Positions 8,719 to 21,309 of a stretch of 33,498 nucleotides of DNA are shown piece by piece. The stretch spans positions 1 through 33,498 of the IMG/VR virus record IMGVR_UViG_3300047481_002637; one strand, 5' to 3'. Source of the stretch: a virus. Positions within the stretch are counted from its first letter, which is position 1. The number at the start of each line of letters is the position of its first letter. Made by a program: the position numbers and the translations under genes. The notes under the pieces are model-generated. The model did not search any database and was not told the DNA's origin. It was given only the letters and a program-made list of their open reading frames with translations.

Positions 8719-9376
8719 GTGCAGGACTGGTTTCTATTTCGTTGATGAGAATCTGTGCCCAGGCCGCATGAGCAGCAGGTTCAAAATGCTGCCAGCCTGG
8801 TGTGATTTCTTCGAACTTGTTTTCTATGCTCTGTGTGACATAGGTCACTCGCTCATTGTAGGGGCAGTAAAAACAACAGTGCCAGTCCAGCCACTCTTTG
8901 GGGCTTTCGATCTGGAAATGATGGAAAGCATTGAAAAACAGGTGCGGAATCTTGCGTTCGTACAACCAGAGATGCAGATTGTAGATCTTGTTGTGCCAAT
9001 AGTAGCTCATGATGCGATGCCAGTTCACATCTTTCTGGATATGGTTCTTCCAGAACTGATAGCGCCGTCGGAACTCTTCGGGTATCCTTTGGCCCACATC
9101 CAGCTGGTTGATTTCATGGAACTCGCCTTCGAAATACCACTGCTCGCGGCCATGCTCGCTCCAGCCAATGACCACGAGATCGGGCGCAGGATTGTTTTGT
9201 AGATATTGCCAGGTGCTCGTGTAGATAAGATCGTTGCTGGCACCACTAACAGCAAGATTGGTGGCCGTGGCGCCGAAGTGCCGAGTGATCACTCCAGCCA
9301 TGCCAAGATCGCGATCTGGCAGCTCTTCGCCGCTCATGTTGCTGTCGCCGTTGAACAAGATGTGCATGTCTGTCAT
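8675..9376 (-). CDS. SGNH-hydrolase-like protein 2
   Basis: This 233-residue paralog of the preceding protein has FNGDSNMSGEEL (8-19) as block I, an SGASNDLIYTS block, a FFNAFHHF strand and HFEPAAHAAWAQIL with the probable catalytic His. Between these lies a Trp/Tyr/His-rich region suited to binding a carbohydrate. It is coupled to the nucleotidyltransferase by ATGA at 9376-9373, so the two may act on the same substrate. The C-terminal tail after about residue 215 is encoded in DNA shared with the start of the next gene. No signal peptide, so it probably works in the cytoplasm or in the virion. Confidence 0.65.
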   Translation of the reverse strand: MTDMHILFNGDSNMSGEELPDRDLGMAGVITRHFGATATNLAVSGASNDLIYTSTWQYLQNNPAPDLVVIGWSEHGREQWYFEGEFHEINQLDVGQRIPEEFRRRYQFWKNHIQKDVNWHRIMSYYWHNKIYNLHLWLYERKIPHLFFNAFHHFQIESPKEWLDWHCCFYCPYNERVTYVTQSIENKFEEITPGWQHFEPAAHAAWAQILINEIETSPAHAIIFERRQSRSSG

Positions 9377-9849
9377 GATTGCTGCAATACCTTCATGCTT
9401 TCTGCGGCCACCACACGCTTGCGCAGGCTGCTAGAGCTGAATGAGTGGTCTCGTCCGTTGAACACAAGCTCGATTTCTCGTCGTTCGCATTCGAGTTTGC
9501 CAGTGAAATATTGACCTTCGTACTCTACGCCCAACACTCGCACGTCCAGAGGCAAGATCAAGAGCAGATCCACGAGATCCTGTTCGGTCTGATAAACAAC
9601 CACTTCGTCCACGTACCTGCAGGCCGCCAACTGGATCTGTCGTTCTACGATGCTTTGCACAGGCTTGTTTTTTGTGTCGGGACGGTCGATGGTAGGGTCA
9701 GTCTGCAAGCCGGCAATGAGGTAATCACAGTGATTCTTGGCTTCCGAAAGCATGGCGATGTGTCCGGCATGCAGCATGTCAAAGGTTGAGAACGTGATGC
9801 CGATTTTTTTGCCCTCGGCCTTGAGCTGCTTGATATGATTGAAGATCAC
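9373..9849 (-). CDS. Cytidylyltransferase-like nucleotidyltransferase
   Basis: This 158-residue protein has the HxGH signature (LHAGH, 26-30) in a Rossmann-like N-terminus. The closing FSSSSLRKRV motif (about 137-146) corresponds to the ISTT-type element of TagD/RfaE-type cytidylyl- and adenylyltransferases. These activate glycerol-3-phosphate, sugar phosphates or similar small phosphates with CTP or ATP. The start is GTG, overlapping the upstream stop as GTGA. Position next to SGNH proteins suggests a role in glycan or phospho-alcohol decoration. The substrate cannot be fixed. Confidence 0.75.
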   Translation of the reverse strand: MIFNHIKQLKAEGKKIGITFSTFDMLHAGHIAMLSEAKNHCDYLIAGLQTDPTIDRPDTKNKPVQSIVERQIQLAACRYVDEVVVYQTEQDLVDLLLILPLDVRVLGVEYEGQYFTGKLECERREIELVFNGRDHSFSSSSLRKRVVAAESMKVLQQS

Positions 9850-10232: not shown

Positions 10233-10475
10233 TTATTTGCCTTTCAACAAAAGCATCATCACCGTTTGTGTGTCGTACCAACGATTTTCTATCACAGGAT
10301 CGCCGGGCCCGGTCCACATGCAGGTGGTTTTCACAGCCGGCCGCAGCCAAAGCCAACGGCCGGTTGACCAACAACGTCGGGGCCACAAGCTCCAGCGTGA
10401 TTCTATGTGAGCGCGGCGTAGCCAAGTCACATCGTTGATTTCGTTGGAAGATCGGTAGTTGGCCCCAAACATCAT
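10233..10475 (-). CDS. Small conserved phage protein
   Basis: This 80-residue basic, Trp/Arg-rich protein (WLRRAHIESRWSLWPRR, then a GDPVIENRWYDTQTVMM end) begins with two ATGs. The first overlaps the QueE stop as TAATG. The segment with TGPGDPVIENRW resembles short conserved proteins of T4-like phages. A longer frame in another phase covers the same DNA but conflicts with the neat TAATG and TAAATG junctions on both sides, so this frame is preferred. Function unknown. Confidence 0.6.
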   Translation of the reverse strand: MMFGANYRSSNEINDVTWLRRAHIESRWSLWPRRCWSTGRWLWLRPAVKTTCMWTGPGDPVIENRWYDTQTVMMLLLKGK

Positions 10476-11320
10476 TACTTGCCCCAGCCATTGCCCCAGA
10501 GGTCCACATGCAAGCGTGGACTGTACCAGTAACCGCGACGCAGGGCTTCGTCGGCCACCGGCACACGATTGGCATCATACACTGAACTCACTCCTCCCAC
10601 GGGCATGACGAAAACCGGACCGGCAAAATTGGCATTGCGATAGTCATCTACAGCCAGATCCAGCTCGGCAAAATCTTCGACCTTTTCTACCACGAACTTG
10701 AGATAGGTCACGCCGTGGATCTCATAGTCAGCGACCACGGCAGGACGGATGGCTTCTTCGCGGCTTTCGCCACTGACACTGAGTTTGGGACTCACAGAGA
10801 AAGTGATCTCGCCAAACCAGTTGTCAAGATAGAGTCGGAACTCGGGTGTGAGCTCTTGGGTTCCATTGGTCTCAAAAGTCACGTGTCGCAGGCCTCGCTT
10901 GTGCAAAATATCCAAGAGTTCAGGATACACACGCTGCCATCCCAGCAAAGGTTCTCCGCCGGTGATCACAAGATGTACAGGATTGCCATTGGGCATGAGC
11001 CAGTTGCCATGGGGCAGCAGGTCTCGCATGCGATCTGCGATCTCTTCGGCTGACAAGGCCGGGCTGAGGTGTTTGAAACCGGGATGCCAGCTGGCATAAC
11101 TGTCGCAGCCAGTATTGACCAGGGGCAGTTCTTCGAAACTGCGATAAAGCGTGACCTGTTCGGCCACTGCATCGGCTTCGGTACTGCGTTCACCGGGGCG
11201 ACAGCCAAAGCCTGCACAGGTAAAGTTACAACCAAAAGTTCTTAGGAATATGGAAGGCACGCCCACATAGCGGCCTTCACCTTGCGCGGAGTAAAAGATT
11301 TCACTGACTTTGAGTTTCAT
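10475..11320 (-). CDS. queE: 7-carboxy-7-deazaguanine synthase (radical SAM)
   Basis: This 281-residue protein converts 6-carboxy-tetrahydropterin to 7-carboxy-7-deazaguanine, the step after QueD. The N-terminus has EIFYSAQGEGRYVGVPSIFLR, the QueE substrate-binding signature. LRTFGCNFTC gives cysteines 31 and 35 of the iron-sulfur cluster, and ITGGEPLLGW is the SAM-binding GGEP. FETNGTQEL, FSVSPKLS and a LKFVV strand follow. The third cluster cysteine is either Cys40 (spacing unlike classic CX3CX2C) or Cys72 in NTGCDSYASW; other phage-type QueE proteins I recall have the latter. It is coupled by TAATG to genes on both sides. Confidence 0.88.
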   Translation of the reverse strand: MKLKVSEIFYSAQGEGRYVGVPSIFLRTFGCNFTCAGFGCRPGERSTEADAVAEQVTLYRSFEELPLVNTGCDSYASWHPGFKHLSPALSAEEIADRMRDLLPHGNWLMPNGNPVHLVITGGEPLLGWQRVYPELLDILHKRGLRHVTFETNGTQELTPEFRLYLDNWFGEITFSVSPKLSVSGESREEAIRPAVVADYEIHGVTYLKFVVEKVEDFAELDLAVDDYRNANFAGPVFVMPVGGVSSVYDANRVPVADEALRRGYWYSPRLHVDLWGNGWGK

Positions 11321-14245: not shown

Positions 14246-14752
14246 TTACTCTTGAAAAAGATCTTCGTTCCATTCACGATGGCCTTCACGGAAGGCCATG
14301 TTTGCCTGGGTTTCTCTCACTTCTACACGATAGCACCATAGCCGCTCAGCTTCACCCGGTCCCCACATGTCGGGGATGTAAACTCCATTCACATATTTGT
14401 AGAGCATGTCAGCCAAACCTTCGCAGCCCAATCGGGGCAGGATGGTCAGTTTGGCTAGATTCTTTTCCTGCAAGAGCTGGAATGTCTCCAGTTCGGGATC
14501 ATCCTGTGCCACCAGCAAGGTGTGGTCAAACTGGTCTTCCAGTGTTTTCTTGAGTTCTTTGAGGCCGCCATAGTCAGCGGCCCAGTTCCTTACATCAAGA
14601 TCATCAGTGCCGAATGTGAACTTCATAGAGAAACTGTAGCCATGTATGAGGTTGCAATGGCTGTCCGCACGCCACTGGCGATAGGCACAGGGGAAGGCGT
14701 CGTGATACTCTTTGGTTGATGTGTACCGATAGATACGTGGTTGATTTGCCAT
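14246..14752 (-). CDS. queD: 6-carboxy-tetrahydropterin synthase (QueD family)
   Basis: This 168-residue QueD/PTPS-family protein would convert dihydroneopterin triphosphate, the FolE product, to 6-carboxy-tetrahydropterin. SHCNLIHGYSFSMKFTF (31-47) holds the catalytic Cys33 and zinc His37. NWAADYGGLKELK and FDHTLLV match the family, as does a GCEGLADMLYKYV helix. Two usual zinc-ligand positions look altered: Tyr24 in FPCAYRQW where I expect His, and HGY instead of HGH. The latter seems common in a marine/alphaproteobacterial subfamily; Tyr24 may be peculiar. The start has AGGAG and a nearby CTATAAATT late-type motif, so it may begin its own transcript. Confidence 0.82.
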   Translation of the reverse strand: MANQPRIYRYTSTKEYHDAFPCAYRQWRADSHCNLIHGYSFSMKFTFGTDDLDVRNWAADYGGLKELKKTLEDQFDHTLLVAQDDPELETFQLLQEKNLAKLTILPRLGCEGLADMLYKYVNGVYIPDMWGPGEAERLWCYRVEVRETQANMAFREGHREWNEDLFQE

Positions 14753-14835: not shown

Positions 14836-15243
14836 TTACTTAGTGTCTGGCGGTTTGTAGCTGCTTTTCTTGTAGTTGGCCTGACCGGGGATCACCGCAC
14901 GTACACCGCCCACTGCATCTGCACAATCACCGGTGCGTCTTGGGATGAGATGCACATGTGGATACAACACCGTCTGGCCAGCAGCAGTGCCGCAGTTCAT
15001 GCCCACATTGTAGGCCTCCCATTCACCTTGCACTGCTTTGGCGTGACCAATATCAAAGGCTGCTTTGAAAGCATCATGGATGGTGACATTGTTGTTCCAA
15101 CGAGGAACACACAAGAGATGGCCTGCAGTCACTGGATAACCATCAGCAAACACTGCCACGTTGTCGGTGCTAAGCCTTGGATCTTCATCCTGCCAGGGCG
15201 CTGCTCCGGCAGCCTGTGCGGCTTGTAGATTTTCATATTTCAT
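14836..15243 (-). CDS. HIT-family hydrolase or transferase
   Basis: This 135-residue HIT-fold protein has VAGHLLCVPR-like strands (TAGHLLCVPRWNN), NCGTAAGQTVLYPHVHLIPRR (84-103) with the triad region, and GGVRAVIPGQANY near the end. The canonical H-x-H-x-H appears as Tyr94-x-His96-x-His98; the nucleophile-type middle and last His remain, the first is replaced. HIT proteins cleave or transfer nucleotides from NMP-linked substrates such as Ap4A or AMP-amides. It lies between folE and queD with a 4-base overlap to folE, which suggests a link to the deazaguanine precursor pathway, though the reaction is unknown. Confidence 0.85.
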   Translation of the reverse strand: MKYENLQAAQAAGAAPWQDEDPRLSTDNVAVFADGYPVTAGHLLCVPRWNNNVTIHDAFKAAFDIGHAKAVQGEWEAYNVGMNCGTAAGQTVLYPHVHLIPRRTGDCADAVGGVRAVIPGQANYKKSSYKPPDTK

Positions 15244-15938
15244 CTTGGTGCAAAGTCCTGTTGTAGTTTGATGTTGTCAATGAACTCTTTCTTCACTGCT
15301 GGATCAGTTTTGAAAGCGCCGTGCAACACTGTGGTCTGGGTGAGGCTGGAATGTGCCATAATGCCACGATTCTCACAGCAGCCATGTGTGGCTTGGATGT
15401 ACACGCCTACATCGGCACTGTCGGTGACCTTCATGATCTCCCGCGCGATATCATTACAGAGTTCTTCTTGTAGCGTTCCGCGCCGACTGCACCACTGGGC
15501 GATCCGGGTATATTTGGAAAGGCCAATGAGCTTTTCAGCAGCAAGGATGCCGATATAAGCCACACCCACAACAGGTTGATGATGATGGCTACACATGCTG
15601 CGTATCTCACTGCGCACAACCAACATACCTTCATATCTGTCTTTGGAGTCATTGGGAAAAGCCGTGCAATCGGGTGCAGGATCATAGCGCCCAGCCATGA
15701 TTTCGTTGAAGTACATCTTGGCCAGCCTGCGAGCTGTGCCTCGGCTGTTGGGATCGGTGTGGCGGTCAATGAGGAGACGGTCTAGCACCAGTTCAAAGGC
15801 TTCAGTGGCTTCGTTGATGAGATGTTCTCTATCCGAGGGAGCGATGTATTCCGAAATATTGTCTCCAGCCCAGAATCTTTTATTGCCCTCTCGCATGCGT
15901 TTGCGAAGGACGTCACTTAGGTATTTCCCATTTTCCAT
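15240..15938 (-). CDS. folE: GTP cyclohydrolase I
   Basis: This 232-residue protein catalyses GTP to 7,8-dihydroneopterin triphosphate, the first step toward 7-deazaguanines. RGTARRLAKMYFNEIM precedes the active-site block MCSHHHQPVVGVAYIGIL. Then come KLIGLSKYTRIAQWCSRRGTLQEEL and VYIQATHGCCENRG. Zinc ligands are the Cys and His of CSHHH and the Cys after the H in HGCC, as in bacterial FolE. Length is near the family norm. It is first in its transcript: a near-perfect sigma70 promoter lies just upstream, a 5' hairpin sits in the leader, and GGAG is 8 bases before the ATG. The next gene (HIT) overlaps by 4 bases. Confidence 0.93.
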   Translation of the reverse strand: MENGKYLSDVLRKRMREGNKRFWAGDNISEYIAPSDREHLINEATEAFELVLDRLLIDRHTDPNSRGTARRLAKMYFNEIMAGRYDPAPDCTAFPNDSKDRYEGMLVVRSEIRSMCSHHHQPVVGVAYIGILAAEKLIGLSKYTRIAQWCSRRGTLQEELCNDIAREIMKVTDSADVGVYIQATHGCCENRGIMAHSSLTQTTVLHGAFKTDPAVKKEFIDNIKLQQDFAPR

Positions 15939-16012: not shown

Positions 16013-17143
16013 TCACACATTTTCCCACACGTATGGCCCCGATTTAGGTACCGCAAAGTCTAGATAGGTCTGTATCTTTTGCAGATCACTGCGATCCTTG
16101 AGACTACAAGCTTCGTTGGCAAAATGCAACTCCACACCTTGGTCCAAGGCCAATTCCAAGAGTTCGTTGCGACGAACAACATCGTCGGTGAGACTGTACA
16201 TGCTGCTCAGTACAATGCCATCCAATTTGAGCCGGATGTAGTGCTCCAGTCCGGGCTGCCAATCCATGTGCTCGTTTTCAAACTCATAGCTGGAATAAGA
16301 AATACGATGTCGACTGCAATACTGATCAATCACGCTGCGCTGCATGGGCAAAGGTATGTGTTTGGAGAATCTGGAGTTCCATCCTGAATAGGATATTAAA
16401 TGCCGCCCTGTGTAGTCCATGACATCGGCCACTTCGTGGTCGCCGGGCAGGCGCATGAACCCACCTGGCAGTCTTCGACCGTACTCTTCGCCTTCGAGCA
16501 GCAGGCGCATGTCAAGGCTGACTCTGGTATACCCTTCTTGATTTTCCACGTTGCCGTGCAGGTGTTCTTGGAAAAACAAATGGCTCTGCCCCGGCTTGAG
16601 ATTTACCGGCCAGGCATGGCGCAGACATTCTTCTTCGAATCTTTCGAGACTCCATCGTTCGGCCAGTACTCGTTGCGTCAATTCTCGACTGCGATCCAGG
16701 TCCAAGATCCACATGGTGTTGGTGTCTCGAGCTTCGGTGAATGGAGTCCAGATGGTCCTGCAGCCACGCCCATTGCCCACAAAGATGCCCTGATGGAAAG
16801 CCAGCCTACGACCCATGCGTGATTGATTGGGTACCACCACGCGCAGAGTGCCTTGACGTTGTACCATGTAACGGCGTCCGGCCACACGATCTCGTGCGAT
16901 ATAGTCAGCGAACTGGTCGAATCGCTGCATGAAATCTCGTCTGGTACATGCGTTTTGCACATGATTGGCCACAGCGACGAGTTCTTCGGCACTGAGCACT
17001 TGGTGCATGGTTTCTAGTTCTCGCACCCGTGGAGCCACTTCTTGTATCACACTCAAGGCCCAACTGGGCCAATCGTAGAGGTCAAGATCGTAGTTGGCCG
17101 TTTTATTATCCCAATGCAGTTGCGTGTCAGAAAGTTGAGTCAT
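16013..17143 (-). CDS. Fusion: 2OG-Fe(II)-oxygenase-like domain plus sporadic carbohydrate cluster (LIC12192-like) domain
   Basis: This 376-residue protein appears to join two normally separate partners. Residues about 85-215 resemble the sporadic-carbohydrate-cluster 2OG-Fe(II) oxygenases: AFHQGIFVGNGRGCRTIW (115-132), SHLFFQEHLHGN (187-198) and GYTRVSLD (204-211). His196 and Arg207 look like the distal iron ligand and 2-oxoglutarate anchor. The proximal HxD appears as His117-Gln-Gly119. Residues about 247-345 match the LIC12192-type protein: a KHIPLPMQRSVIDQYC start, LDGIVLSSMYSL, and GVELHFANE. The N-terminal 80 residues are helical. The start at 17143 overlaps the previous stop as ATGA with AGGA upstream. 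It lies at the end of the sugar cassette. Confidence 0.6.
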   Translation of the reverse strand: MTQLSDTQLHWDNKTANYDLDLYDWPSWALSVIQEVAPRVRELETMHQVLSAEELVAVANHVQNACTRRDFMQRFDQFADYIARDRVAGRRYMVQRQGTLRVVVPNQSRMGRRLAFHQGIFVGNGRGCRTIWTPFTEARDTNTMWILDLDRSRELTQRVLAERWSLERFEEECLRHAWPVNLKPGQSHLFFQEHLHGNVENQEGYTRVSLDMRLLLEGEEYGRRLPGGFMRLPGDHEVADVMDYTGRHLISYSGWNSRFSKHIPLPMQRSVIDQYCSRHRISYSSYEFENEHMDWQPGLEHYIRLKLDGIVLSSMYSLTDDVVRRNELLELALDQGVELHFANEACSLKDRSDLQKIQTYLDFAVPKSGPYVWENV

Positions 17144-17637
17144 CGTAGGATTCCTGTGATTTGTAAAGTATATCGATCTGTGTGCCCGAGGTTGGCCGCA
17201 AGATGTGGAGTGTGTCCAGTCCATGCGGCCCAATCTCCCTGATGCCAATGCGCCAACAAGGTGTGATCTATTTGCAGGAGATGACCGGGCTGCCAGTCCT
17301 GTAAAAAAACAATGACCCGGGTCAATGATTCAATGGGAGCCGGATGACGAGTGCGATAACTGCCGTAGCGATCGCAATGGGACGGCAGTATATCGCCGGC
17401 TCGGAGCCGGTTTACTGCAAATTCCATTTCAGTCAGCCAGGAAAATTCTTGCACCAACCACGGCTCAAAGTCGGCGCCAAGCCCTATGTGGATGCCAGCG
17501 TTGACATTGTTGTGATATCGTTCTGCATCTTGCGCATCTACTAGATCAAAACCGCTGTATTGATTTTTGTGTTCGGGGTAGCTCAGGTCCAAGAACCAAT
17601 CGCCACACCGGGAGAGATCAATGTGTCCTTGCCGCAT
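17140..17637 (-). CDS. 2OG-Fe(II) oxygenase-like protein
   Basis: This 165-residue cupin-type protein has a strand AVNRLRAGDILPSHCDRYG with His87-x-Asp89 as the proximal iron pair. TRVIVFLQDWQPGHLLQID follows as the sheet. WTGHTPHLAANLGHTDRYTLQITG offers His145 (or His142) as distal ligand and Arg155 to bind 2-oxoglutarate. That is the order expected of Fe(II)/2OG hydroxylases. Marine phages and SAR11-type bacteria carry similar small oxygenases. It overlaps the SDR gene by 20 bases and the fusion gene by 4, so it probably acts in the same sugar pathway. Substrate unknown. Confidence 0.75.
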   Translation of the reverse strand: MRQGHIDLSRCGDWFLDLSYPEHKNQYSGFDLVDAQDAERYHNNVNAGIHIGLGADFEPWLVQEFSWLTEMEFAVNRLRAGDILPSHCDRYGSYRTRHPAPIESLTRVIVFLQDWQPGHLLQIDHTLLAHWHQGDWAAWTGHTPHLAANLGHTDRYTLQITGILR

Positions 17638-18550
17638 CTATCTTGCCTTGCCAATGCTCGATGGTAAGATCCAGTCCCCGACTTCTAGTGGTACTGGGGC
17701 TCCAGCCCAGGCTTTGAGTGATAAGTCGATGGTTGGAATTGAGCCAGTAAATTTCACCGTGGCGTTTGGGTTTGCTGTCCCAGATCACTTGACCCCGCCA
17801 TCCGATCTTGTCTGCGATCATGGCCACATGATCGTTGATGCTGACAGGATCATCGGGACCCATGGTAAACACCTGGCCTTGACAGCAACGGTCAGGATTG
17901 GTGATCACAGCAGTCCAGGCATCCAGCATGTCCTCGATGTAGATGAAATTGCGATAAGGTCTTTGATAGCCCATGTAACAGTGTTCAGGATCGCGCAGCA
18001 TTTGTGTGATGGCCTGTTCAGTGACAAAAAAATCATTGTCTAAGCGTCCGTAGCCATTGGTTTGCCGCAGCGCAGTCCAGGGAAAATCTCTGGCCCGATG
18101 CATGTACTCAAGGTAGTGTTCTACAGCAAGTTTGGCCACTGCATAGGGTGCATTGGGATTGGGCTTGGTGGTTTCATCAAAGGCCACAGGGGTGTCAGTG
18201 CGTCCGTGCAGCCTTATCTCGTCGCTGATGGGTTGCCAACCGTATACTTCCATGGTGGATGCAAATACAAAGTTGCGTAGCCGTGGGAGTTTACTGGCAG
18301 CTTCGATCAAGTTCACACTGCCCACATAGTTCACTTGGCTGAATGAAACCTGTTCGTAGAAACTCTTTTCCACCTCAGTGCGAGCAGCAAGATGCACGAT
18401 CACATCGGGGTCAGCAGCAAGAACTTCTTGCTCTACGGCTGCGAAATCCAAGAGATCGCTCTGCATGCAATGTATGTGATAATGCGGCTGTAATCTGCGC
18501 TGCAGATGCGATCCAATAAAGCCTGAACTACCAGTCAAAAATATTTTCAT
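17618..18550 (-). CDS. NAD(P)-dependent sugar epimerase/dehydratase (extended SDR)
   Basis: This 310-residue extended SDR starts MKIFLTGSSGFIGSHL with the GxxGxxG nucleotide site. VIVHLAARTEVEKS follows, then FASTMEVYG with the catalytic Ser/Thr and PYAVAKLAVEHYLEY with the YxxxK pair. RNFIYIEDMLDAW and GQVFTMGPDDPVSINDHV are typical of the NDP-sugar-binding half. Best described as an NDP-sugar epimerase/dehydratase of the RfbB/WcaG-like group; the exact reaction is not readable. It follows the aminotransferase after a 7-base gap. Confidence 0.85.
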   Translation of the reverse strand: MKIFLTGSSGFIGSHLQRRLQPHYHIHCMQSDLLDFAAVEQEVLAADPDVIVHLAARTEVEKSFYEQVSFSQVNYVGSVNLIEAASKLPRLRNFVFASTMEVYGWQPISDEIRLHGRTDTPVAFDETTKPNPNAPYAVAKLAVEHYLEYMHRARDFPWTALRQTNGYGRLDNDFFVTEQAITQMLRDPEHCYMGYQRPYRNFIYIEDMLDAWTAVITNPDRCCQGQVFTMGPDDPVSINDHVAMIADKIGWRGQVIWDSKPKRHGEIYWLNSNHRLITQSLGWSPSTTRSRGLDLTIEHWQGKIDAARTH

Positions 18551-18557
18551 CTGGTAT

Positions 18558-19157
18558 TTAACTTGGACTATTTTGGATCAGGATTTTCCGGCAATCTGGA
18601 TAGGCAACGAATACCGGTTCATGCTGCACCTGAGGCAATAGTTCTAGGCCCAGTGCCACGGATTCTAGGGTGGGAAAGTAATGGAACCCCATAGACATGG
18701 TGGTTTGATTGACCCAGGGATGTATGCGCAGATCTCTACCGTCACTGCGCATGCAGCTCAGGGCTCGATAAGCATCGGCATCATCCAACAGTATGGCTCC
18801 TACTTTGCCCAGAGTCAGAGGTTTTCCGTTGCCAAAGCTGAGACACTGCATCTGCCCAGCTCGATACATGCCTCGTTCTAGCCTGCGTGCCGAGTCCCAG
18901 ATACGGGTGCCGATGAACTGGTACTCACCGATCCAGCGTTGCCACTCGTGATCCAGGTATTGATAGTCTATGCCCAAGATGTGCATGACCTGTGGGATAC
19001 TGACGTAGGTAAACGGTGTGAATTTACACCGTTTGACGCCATCGTAGCGCATGCATAGTTCTACGGCATGGCTGCATCCGTCAGTGACCACTGCATAAGG
19101 AGCCCCGGTGTAATTGGCCAAAGCAGCTTCAAACTCAAACAGTACATCATAGTTCAT
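18558..19157 (-). CDS. Compact DegT/DnrJ/EryC1-type aminotransferase
   Basis: This 199-residue protein has the large-domain landmarks of DegT-type sugar aminotransferases. YTGAPYAVVTDGCSHAVEL is the cofactor phosphate region. RIWDSARRLERG supplies the Asp that contacts the PLP ring. CLSFGNGKPLTLGKVGAIL contains the PLP lysine. A MGFHYFPTLESVALGLEL helix then closes the domain, and the roughly 150-residue C-terminal small domain of full-length members is absent. It may be a minimal phage form, or need a partner. ATG at 19157 overlaps the galE-like stop as ATGA. The product would be an amino sugar nucleotide. Confidence 0.75.
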   Translation of the reverse strand: MNYDVLFEFEAALANYTGAPYAVVTDGCSHAVELCMRYDGVKRCKFTPFTYVSIPQVMHILGIDYQYLDHEWQRWIGEYQFIGTRIWDSARRLERGMYRAGQMQCLSFGNGKPLTLGKVGAILLDDADAYRALSCMRSDGRDLRIHPWVNQTTMSMGFHYFPTLESVALGLELLPQVQHEPVFVAYPDCRKILIQNSPS

Positions 19158-20107
19158 CGTGTATACCATTGCCAAGCATGGCGGATCATGTCATCCAGCT
19201 CGTAGTTGGCTTGCCATTCAGTGATGGCAGCGAACTTGGCGGGACTGGCAGTGAGGCGTGCAGGATCACCGGGCCTTGGATCTGCGATCGTGGTCTTGAG
19301 AACTTTTCCTGTGATGCGTTCGGCAGCAGCCATGATCTGCCGATTGCTGTGACCTTGATTGGTGCCGAGATTGTACACACCCGACGGCAATGCTTCGTCT
19401 CCGATGCTGAGTATGTGAGCTCGAGCTATGTCCATCACATGCACATAATCTCTCACGCAGGTGCCATCTTCGGTGTCAAAGCTCACACCGTTGAGCTGGA
19501 ATTCTTGATCGTCTCTGATACTTTCCAGAATCCTAGCCATGATGTGTGTGGCACCGGGTTCTTGTCCATGCCGTCCGCGAGCATCGGCACCGCAGGCATT
19601 GAAGTAGCGCAGGGCCACGTAGCGCATGCCATAGGCCTTATGATAGCAGTGCATGATGCGCTCGATCATGAGTTTGCTTTCGCCATAGGGCGAAATCGGA
19701 GCACATGCATCAGTTTCTTTGCAGGGCTGGCTCACAGGTTCACCATAGCAGGCCGCGCTGCTGCTGAAGATCCAGTCCATGTGGGGGAATGGTTTCCGCA
19801 GCGTGTCCATGAGTTTGAGAGTTTTGGCAGTGTTGTTGTTGAAGTAGGCCGCTGGATCTCTGAGACTGGGACCTACCAAACTTGTGCCTGCACAATGCAC
19901 AATGGCATCGGGAGTGAATTCAATCATGGCCCTGAGTGCAGGTGATTCGGCAAAATCTCCACGCACGAATCTCGTACTGTCATGAATCAGTCCAGGATGC
20001 AAGGCTCGAGTGTCTATGGCCAGAGTGGGCCAGCCCAGATCCTGCAGCATCAACAAGGTCTGGCCACCGATGTAGCCAGCTGCTCCAGTGACTATGACTC
20101 GCTTCAT
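19154..20107 (-). CDS. galE: UDP-glucose 4-epimerase-like protein
   Basis: This 317-residue protein follows the GalE pattern throughout. KRVIVTGAAGYIGGQ is the NAD site. Then come DAIVHCAGTSLVGPSLRDP, IFSSSAACYGEP and PYGESKLMIERI with the YxxxK pair. RYFNACGAD and HIMARILE bind UDP-sugar, and DTEDGTCVRDYVHVMDIARAH and GVYNLGTNQGHS close it. It interconverts UDP-sugars at C4. ATG at 20107 overlaps the upstream glycosyltransferase stop as ATGA; a longer start lies inside that gene and is rejected. Slightly shorter than cellular GalE. It would supply galactose-type donors to the cassette. Confidence 0.85.
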   Translation of the reverse strand: MKRVIVTGAAGYIGGQTLLMLQDLGWPTLAIDTRALHPGLIHDSTRFVRGDFAESPALRAMIEFTPDAIVHCAGTSLVGPSLRDPAAYFNNNTAKTLKLMDTLRKPFPHMDWIFSSSAACYGEPVSQPCKETDACAPISPYGESKLMIERIMHCYHKAYGMRYVALRYFNACGADARGRHGQEPGATHIMARILESIRDDQEFQLNGVSFDTEDGTCVRDYVHVMDIARAHILSIGDEALPSGVYNLGTNQGHSNRQIMAAAERITGKVLKTTIADPRPGDPARLTASPAKFAAITEWQANYELDDMIRHAWQWYTR

Positions 20108-21309
20108 TCTTCGATCTTGACTACCTGGTATTTTTCGTGTGGCACATGATCGCGATAGCGATTGCCTGATCGATTCCATTGTTCACCTGTGCCGGTGATG
20201 ATGTCAATGATGCGATCCACAGTACCGTTGTTCCAGTCCGAGATCAAGCCCATGTTGTGATGTGGAGCATGCAAGGCGTTCTGCACTTTGTGATAGGCAT
20301 CGTCAATGCTCCAGGGCACATAGAGTCGCTGAGGATCATTGGCAAAGGTCTCAGGGAATGATCTGTAGGCTGGGTACACCACATTGGCGCCCAAAGTATC
20401 AGCCTCACTCACTGTATTGCTTACCCAATCCTGCAAGGCACAGTTGAACAGTACCCGTGTGTTGTTCAGCAACTCGTAGTAGTCGTTCTTGGTGAGATTC
20501 TCATAGATGCGCAGCAGGCCCTGGCGTTCTAGATCTCGGGCGCGATCCACGTATTCGGGGCGGTTGGACCGCAAAGGTCCGCCCGAGTAGATGCACCATT
20601 CTGTGGCTGGTGCACCTAGATCGCGTGTCATTTCAATGAGATCCATGAAAAAGCCGGGCTGCTTTTCTTGATCAAATCGAGCAGCAAAGGCCACGCGACG
20701 TGGACGCTCAGCAAAAGGCCGTATCCGGTCTGCACCGCCTATGCGTTCCAACACTTCTTCTCGACCAAATGCCAAGCCGGAGATGTTGTAGATAGGCGCG
20801 GTCCAGCCAGCGATCCTCATGTGAGCCACCATCTCTTCGTTGGTGGCCAGCACTGTAAGCCCTGGGATCTGGTTCACCATCCGTTCATACGTCGACATCC
20901 AGCCCGCCATGCCCCAGACATGCACGAAATCATCAGGATCAATGGCTTGAGCAAGACAGCGAACAAAGATGCGAGGACGAAGATCGCCGGGTACTTGATC
21001 GAGGATGTAAGGTAAGCTCTCGATACCGGGCTGGAACATGTCTTCAAAATAGACCACATCATCTGCAGTTACCTCCCCTTGTTGCATGAGGCGCACTAGG
21101 TTCATCATCTGGCTCATGGCAAAATAGCTGCGACCATGCGCATCTAAGACCTGGCCCACTGAAATCTTTTGTGCATTGTCGAGAGTAAGTCCAGGCACAT
21201 AGACCACATCAAGCCCGCGACGCTCAAACACCCGGCGGTTCCACTCAGTGAGTTGCAGCGTGTAGCGTTCTTGATAGGCTTCAAGGCCCATGTAAAATAG
21301 TCGGCGCAT
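20104..21309 (-). CDS. GT-B type glycosyltransferase
   Basis: This 401-residue protein has a GT-B layout. The N-terminal half carries DVVYFEDMFQPGIESLPYI and a linker TVLATNEEMVAHMRIAGW. The second half carries RRVAFAARFDQEKQPGFFMDLIE, WCIYSGGPLRS, and ILFNCALQDWVSNTVSEADTLGANVVYPAYRSFPE, where the donor-sugar Glu would lie in VSEADTLG (split here for length). It resembles glycosyltransferases carried by T4-like cyanophages. Its start overlaps the upstream stop as TAATG and it heads the sugar cassette. Donor could be the UDP-sugar from the neighbouring epimerase. Confidence 0.75.
   Translation of the reverse strand: MRRLFYMGLEAYQERYTLQLTEWNRRVFERRGLDVVYVPGLTLDNAQKISVGQVLDAHGRSYFAMSQMMNLVRLMQQGEVTADDVVYFEDMFQPGIESLPYILDQVPGDLRPRIFVRCLAQAIDPDDFVHVWGMAGWMSTYERMVNQIPGLTVLATNEEMVAHMRIAGWTAPIYNISGLAFGREEVLERIGGADRIRPFAERPRRVAFAARFDQEKQPGFFMDLIEMTRDLGAPATEWCIYSGGPLRSNRPEYVDRARDLERQGLLRIYENLTKNDYYELLNNTRVLFNCALQDWVSNTVSEADTLGANVVYPAYRSFPETFANDPQRLYVPWSIDDAYHKVQNALHAPHHNMGLISDWNNGTVDRIIDIITGTGEQWNRSGNRYRDHVPHEKYQVVKIEE

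Follow-up and report, generated by a model that had tools for sequence, protein, structure and literature searches.

In Fe(II)/2-oxoglutarate (Fe/2OG) halogenases, glycine or alanine stands in place of the aspartate of the metal site, and a plant halogenase arose from a hydroxylase with an accompanying aspartate-to-glycine change (PMC12346261). Human AspH presents an HXG...H motif with two histidines and yet hydroxylates without halogenating (PMC10947486, PMC13168262). The cyanophage halogenase genes counted in one review are flavin-dependent (PMC10452541). The protein described here is related to two NCBIfam families, namely, TIGR04324 (SpoChoClust_2, the sporadic carbohydrate cluster 2OG-Fe(II) oxygenase), marked by an HxD...H...R motif and a curated cut-off of 150 bits, and TIGR04323 (SpoChoClust_1, LIC12192), with a curated cut-off of 55 bits. 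A literature search on the LIC12192 family returned no paper, and the NCBIfam name gives no role.

TIGR04323 is rare, being detected in 7 of 398 genomes of the phylum sampled, one of the seven being a fusion in a Pelagibacter bin; in all six genomes with a standalone copy, a TIGR04324 gene lies directly upstream. Across the bacterial loci sampled, 19 of which had been picked by TIGR04324 score, TIGR04324 is followed by TIGR04323 as separate, adjacent genes on the same strand in every case (25/25), as is also true of the unfused pairs found on three IMG/VR contigs (3/3). Because the bacterial gene order of this operon link is the same as the domain order of the phage fusion considered below, the partnership between the two domains proposed in an earlier, sequence-only reading holds. 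In one small bacterial genome, a LIC12192 domain appears by eye to be fused to a probable SAM methyltransferase (L167, 416-1495, minus strand).

The window, i.e., the whole stretch of DNA analysed here, is a 33.5 kb virus record that includes a gene for a family-B DNA polymerase. In it, a single unbroken ORF with an ATG start at 17143 joins relatives of the two families in one protein, the relevant features of which are the following:

16013..17143, minus strand: fusion gene encoding 376 residues, with an N-terminal domain of predicted 2OG-Fe(II)-oxygenase fold and a C-terminal LIC12192-type domain (profile search, homologue alignment)
16502..17035, minus strand: residues 37-214, matching TIGR04324 (NCBIfam, 68.7 bits, E 5.4e-19; fold)
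16787..16795, minus strand: metal motif H117-Q118-G119 (HxG), where bacterial homologues have HxD (alignment)
16556..16558, minus strand: H196, putative distal metal ligand (alignment)
16523..16525, minus strand: R207, presumed 2OG-binding arginine (alignment)
16061..16360, minus strand: residues 262-361, matching TIGR04323 (NCBIfam, 47.7 bits, E 1.3e-12), with a predicted serine-recombinase-like fold (model, Foldseek, profile comparison)

Translation from an in-frame TTG at 17248 would lengthen the protein by 35 residues, but homologues align from the ATG instead. Although colinear with the two families over these stretches, both domains score below the respective curated cut-offs and are, therefore, distant relatives of TIGR04324 and TIGR04323 rather than formal members. 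The profile matches and the predicted folds agree with the assignment of the two halves in the sequence-only reading to a 2OG-Fe(II) oxygenase-like and a LIC12192-type protein. Of the family identifiers it had given, TIGR04323 was indeed matched, while TIGR04322 looks like a slip, the matched family being TIGR04324. Its oxygenase label is sound as to fold but unsafe as a plain description of activity, given the HxG metal motif. Searches with the fusion protein yielded nothing in Pfam, nothing credible in PHROGs and no sequence match to a solved structure, and a PADLOC scan returned nothing.

The survey for the same fusion in other phages revealed the full-length architecture in 126 of the 135 tblastn matches extracted (75 distinct sequences, some loci having been fetched twice), nearly all on uncultivated phage contigs. 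The same protein was found at 45 IMG/VR loci, with 54-100% identity, and a wider IMG/VR search showed at least 144 viral stretches to encode relatives, while no record in the cultured-phage and plasmid collections matched the fusion. Recurrence at many viral loci confirms that the fusion is real, reflecting neither chance nor an assembly artefact. One copy (L047; CAJQJC010000067.1) lies on a short contig that was placed in a Candidatus Pelagibacter MAG but that, at 13 kb, may be a phage contig. Two fusion paralogues per phage locus were seen in L069, L071, L072, L075 and L076, the second copy being on the opposite strand in L069, L071, L072 and L076. Such tandem paralogues are more distant (approximately 44-49% identity to the query), with HQG in both copies where inspected.

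When the full predicted model was compared with solved structures using Foldseek, 20 matches were obtained at E <= 0.001. Every one of them carries a description as an Fe/2OG or non-heme iron enzyme; ThoJ, EvdO1, ColD and the CurA halogenase domain are among them. TM-scores for the full model were low (0.25-0.32), and the N-domain model is weak (pLDDT < 50) precisely at residues 116-127, corresponding to the metal loop. Alignment of 68 phage and 25 bacterial sequences revealed the distal histidine, together with the arginine eleven residues on, to be kept in all 93. By contrast, the proximal motif reads HAD, HSD, HTD or HCD in all 25 bacterial sequences and HSD or HGD in the unfused viral copies but HQG in 67 of the 68 distinct phage fusions, with unchanged spacing to a W-x-P stretch. 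As such, the phage domain preserves the histidine and arginine of the TIGR04324 motif while bearing HxG in place of HxD, as do Fe/2OG halogenases and AspH, enzymes not close to it in sequence. The position four residues after the arginine likewise differs, being aspartate in the phage fusions (68/68) and asparagine in the bacterial TIGR04324 members (25/25). H194 (of an HLH motif) was considered as a third metal ligand and dropped, as Met or Gln is found there in some members.

The sole HxD-bearing phage fusion, with HCD, is a second fusion gene (L062, 8164-9291, minus strand) belonging to the phage of L038, such that one phage encodes both HQG and HCD fusions. In a tree of the N-domain, phage sequences stand apart from bacterial ones and the HCD copy (row L063) lies outside the group formed by the remaining phage rows, on a long branch and with weak support (82/65). 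The simplest reading would be one aspartate-to-glycine change in the phage lineage, a direction that we infer.

The C-domain was modelled with greater confidence (residues 236-376, mean pLDDT 82). Among Foldseek matches to this domain, the best 25 PDB entries were serine recombinases (probability 0.99-1.00, TM about 0.5-0.6), and a serine recombinase also appeared at rank 29 in the search with the full model. Profile alignment of the C-domain with PF00239 members, the resolvases being taken from six genomes, was colinear over 119 columns, with E 8e-4 but an hhalign probability of only 9.9%; response regulators, used as negative control, gave E 0.37, and comparison with the three bacterial rows alone failed. 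As the profile comparison is only modest, the assignment of a serine-recombinase-like fold is drawn mainly from the structure search. While this predicted fold is shared with the domains of gamma-delta resolvase and TP901-1 integrase, the recombinase catalytic positions R8, S10, D67, R68 and R71, including the nucleophilic serine, are occupied mostly by G, N, Y, S/C and D in phages and by G, R, F, M and mixed residues in bacteria. Given these replacements, the LIC12192 domain is probably not a recombinase. It presents instead its own set of fifteen positions common to phage and bacterial sequences (Y252, P264, Q268, Y275, E289, L299, G309, S314, R324, R325, L339, H340, A342, E344 and D353), a likeness to TIGR04323 despite the low score and its incorporation into a longer protein, of which it forms the C-terminal half. 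In Rossmann-like folds, ligands are usually placed just after strands; in the model, S314, A342 and E344 sit just after strands, which, by topology, would make this region a candidate ligand site.

The genes surrounding the fusion in the window are as follows:

15240..15938, minus strand: GTP cyclohydrolase I (profile)
17140..17637, minus strand: AspH/cupin-like small oxygenase of 165 residues, the commonest companion (37/69 loci; locus clustering)
17618..18550, minus strand: NAD-dependent sugar epimerase/dehydratase, the second commonest companion (34/69 loci; profile, clustering)
18558..19175, minus strand: short DegT/StrS-like protein of 205 residues (profile, E 5.6e-14)
19154..20179, minus strand: GalE-type UDP-sugar 4-epimerase (above the TIGR01179 cut-off)
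20104..21309, minus strand: probable GT-B glycosyltransferase (weak match, E 0.016 only)

The stop codon of the small oxygenase gene overlaps the start codon of the fusion (ATGA). Other companions at the 69 loci include a StrB1-like amidinotransferase (30 loci; e.g., L042, 5821-6876), a 380-residue protein of unknown family (27), radical SAM proteins (22) and aminotransferase-like proteins (19 and 16). The closest solved structure to the StrB1-like protein is 1bwd (E 9e-92), and this StrB1-like inosamine-phosphate amidinotransferase shares 29-34% identity with relatives from cultured phages, among them Synechococcus phage S-SCSM2R and Campylobacter phage CP220. The neighbour set varies from phage to phage; near the fusion in the window, no amidinotransferase was seen, with epimerases, the DegT-like protein and GTP cyclohydrolase being present. 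Taken together, the neighbours point to sugar or aminosugar chemistry. The DegT/StrS-like protein is about half the usual length, and a size of about 200 residues is kept in other phages. Elsewhere in the window, a heptose nucleotidyltransferase-like (RfaE-type) gene (9373-9849, minus strand) adds a further sugar-nucleotide function, and QueE-like radical SAM (10475-11320) and QueD-like (14246-14752) sequences, together with the GTP cyclohydrolase I gene, are parts of a 7-deazaguanine route, possibly serving DNA modification.

The reading favoured here, with a rough probability of 0.55, is that the fusion is a two-domain phage tailoring enzyme in which an Fe/2OG N-domain and a recombinase-fold C-domain serve the same (amino)sugar substrate. 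In the N-domain, a double-stranded beta-helix of the 2OG/Fe(II) type, iron would be held by H117 and H196 and 2OG by R207, with Gly119, in place of the aspartate of the triad, freeing a coordination position that water or a halide could take. The C-domain, a resolvase fold lacking the recombinase active site, would use residues of its own (Y252, Q268, Y275, E289, S314, R324, R325, H340, A342, E344 and D353) to bind or further convert the substrate of the N-domain. That both domains act on one substrate, as argued earlier from the fusion itself, would fit this scheme. Judged from the neighbouring genes, the substrate may be a nucleotide-linked or glycan-linked (amino)sugar, most likely subject to oxidative tailoring. 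The reaction would most likely be a two-histidine, AspH-like C-H hydroxylation or oxidation, with halogenation as the leading alternative.

According to that alternative, the N-domain works as a halogenase of the Fe(II)/2OG type, in which Gly119 admits chloride to the iron, with the sugar or amino sugar being halogenated while the C-domain presents it. As HxG is found in both halogenases and AspH, the motif is compatible with hydroxylation and halogenation alike. Nearly all phage fusions bear this sequence mark of the halogenase class, one such phage additionally having an HxD paralogue, a change of the same kind accompanied the plant transition from hydroxylase to halogenase (PMC12346261), and the leading structural matches include the CurA halogenase domain. 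Yet Fe/2OG hydroxylases rank equally high in the fold search, and AspH, with the same motif, does not halogenate (PMC13168262). Halogenation is considered unlikely. We know of no chlorinated phage product for such clusters. A broader scenario, in which widespread uncultivated aquatic phages derived an Fe/2OG halogenase from a carbohydrate-cluster hydroxylase through the aspartate-to-glycine change and joined it to a serine-recombinase fold co-opted to act on small molecules, beside aminoglycoside-like genes such as that for the StrB1-like amidinotransferase, is regarded as improbable.

Loss of the metal carboxylate could also mean loss of activity, leaving the N-domain as a pseudoenzyme, a former oxygenase fold that binds or holds a C-domain carrying the activity. 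The conserved residues of the C-domain would suit such an arrangement, and the 165-residue neighbour, which resembles an oxygenase with an HxD-type motif, could supply oxidation. A dead site would, however, have no need of H117, H196 and R207, which, with their surroundings (HQGIFVGNGRG and QExxHGN), belong to the best-conserved stretches of the sequence, making this explanation rather doubtful. That the C-domain still acts on DNA as a serine recombinase, placing the gene in mobile-element biology, is very improbable. Foldseek matches to recombinase catalytic domains speak for it, but most or all sequences have other residues at the five mapped catalytic positions, the domain is not followed by a DNA-binding region, and standalone relatives adjoin an oxygenase gene at every sampled locus.

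The HxG site and the degenerate, recombinase-like predicted fold of the LIC12192 domain, both absent from the sequence-only reading, are new, as is the connection with a set of genes of aminoglycoside type. The LIC12192 family thereby gains a predicted fold and a candidate site, as well as a partnership with an oxygenase strong enough to have led to fusion and kept across many uncultivated phages from water. The fusion loci point to phages engaging in aminoglycoside-like or aminosugar chemistry, and loss of the aspartate at the iron site may have altered the chemistry of the enzyme. The HxD/HxG pair in one phage offers a natural test of the effect of replacing aspartate with glycine in Fe/2OG enzymes.
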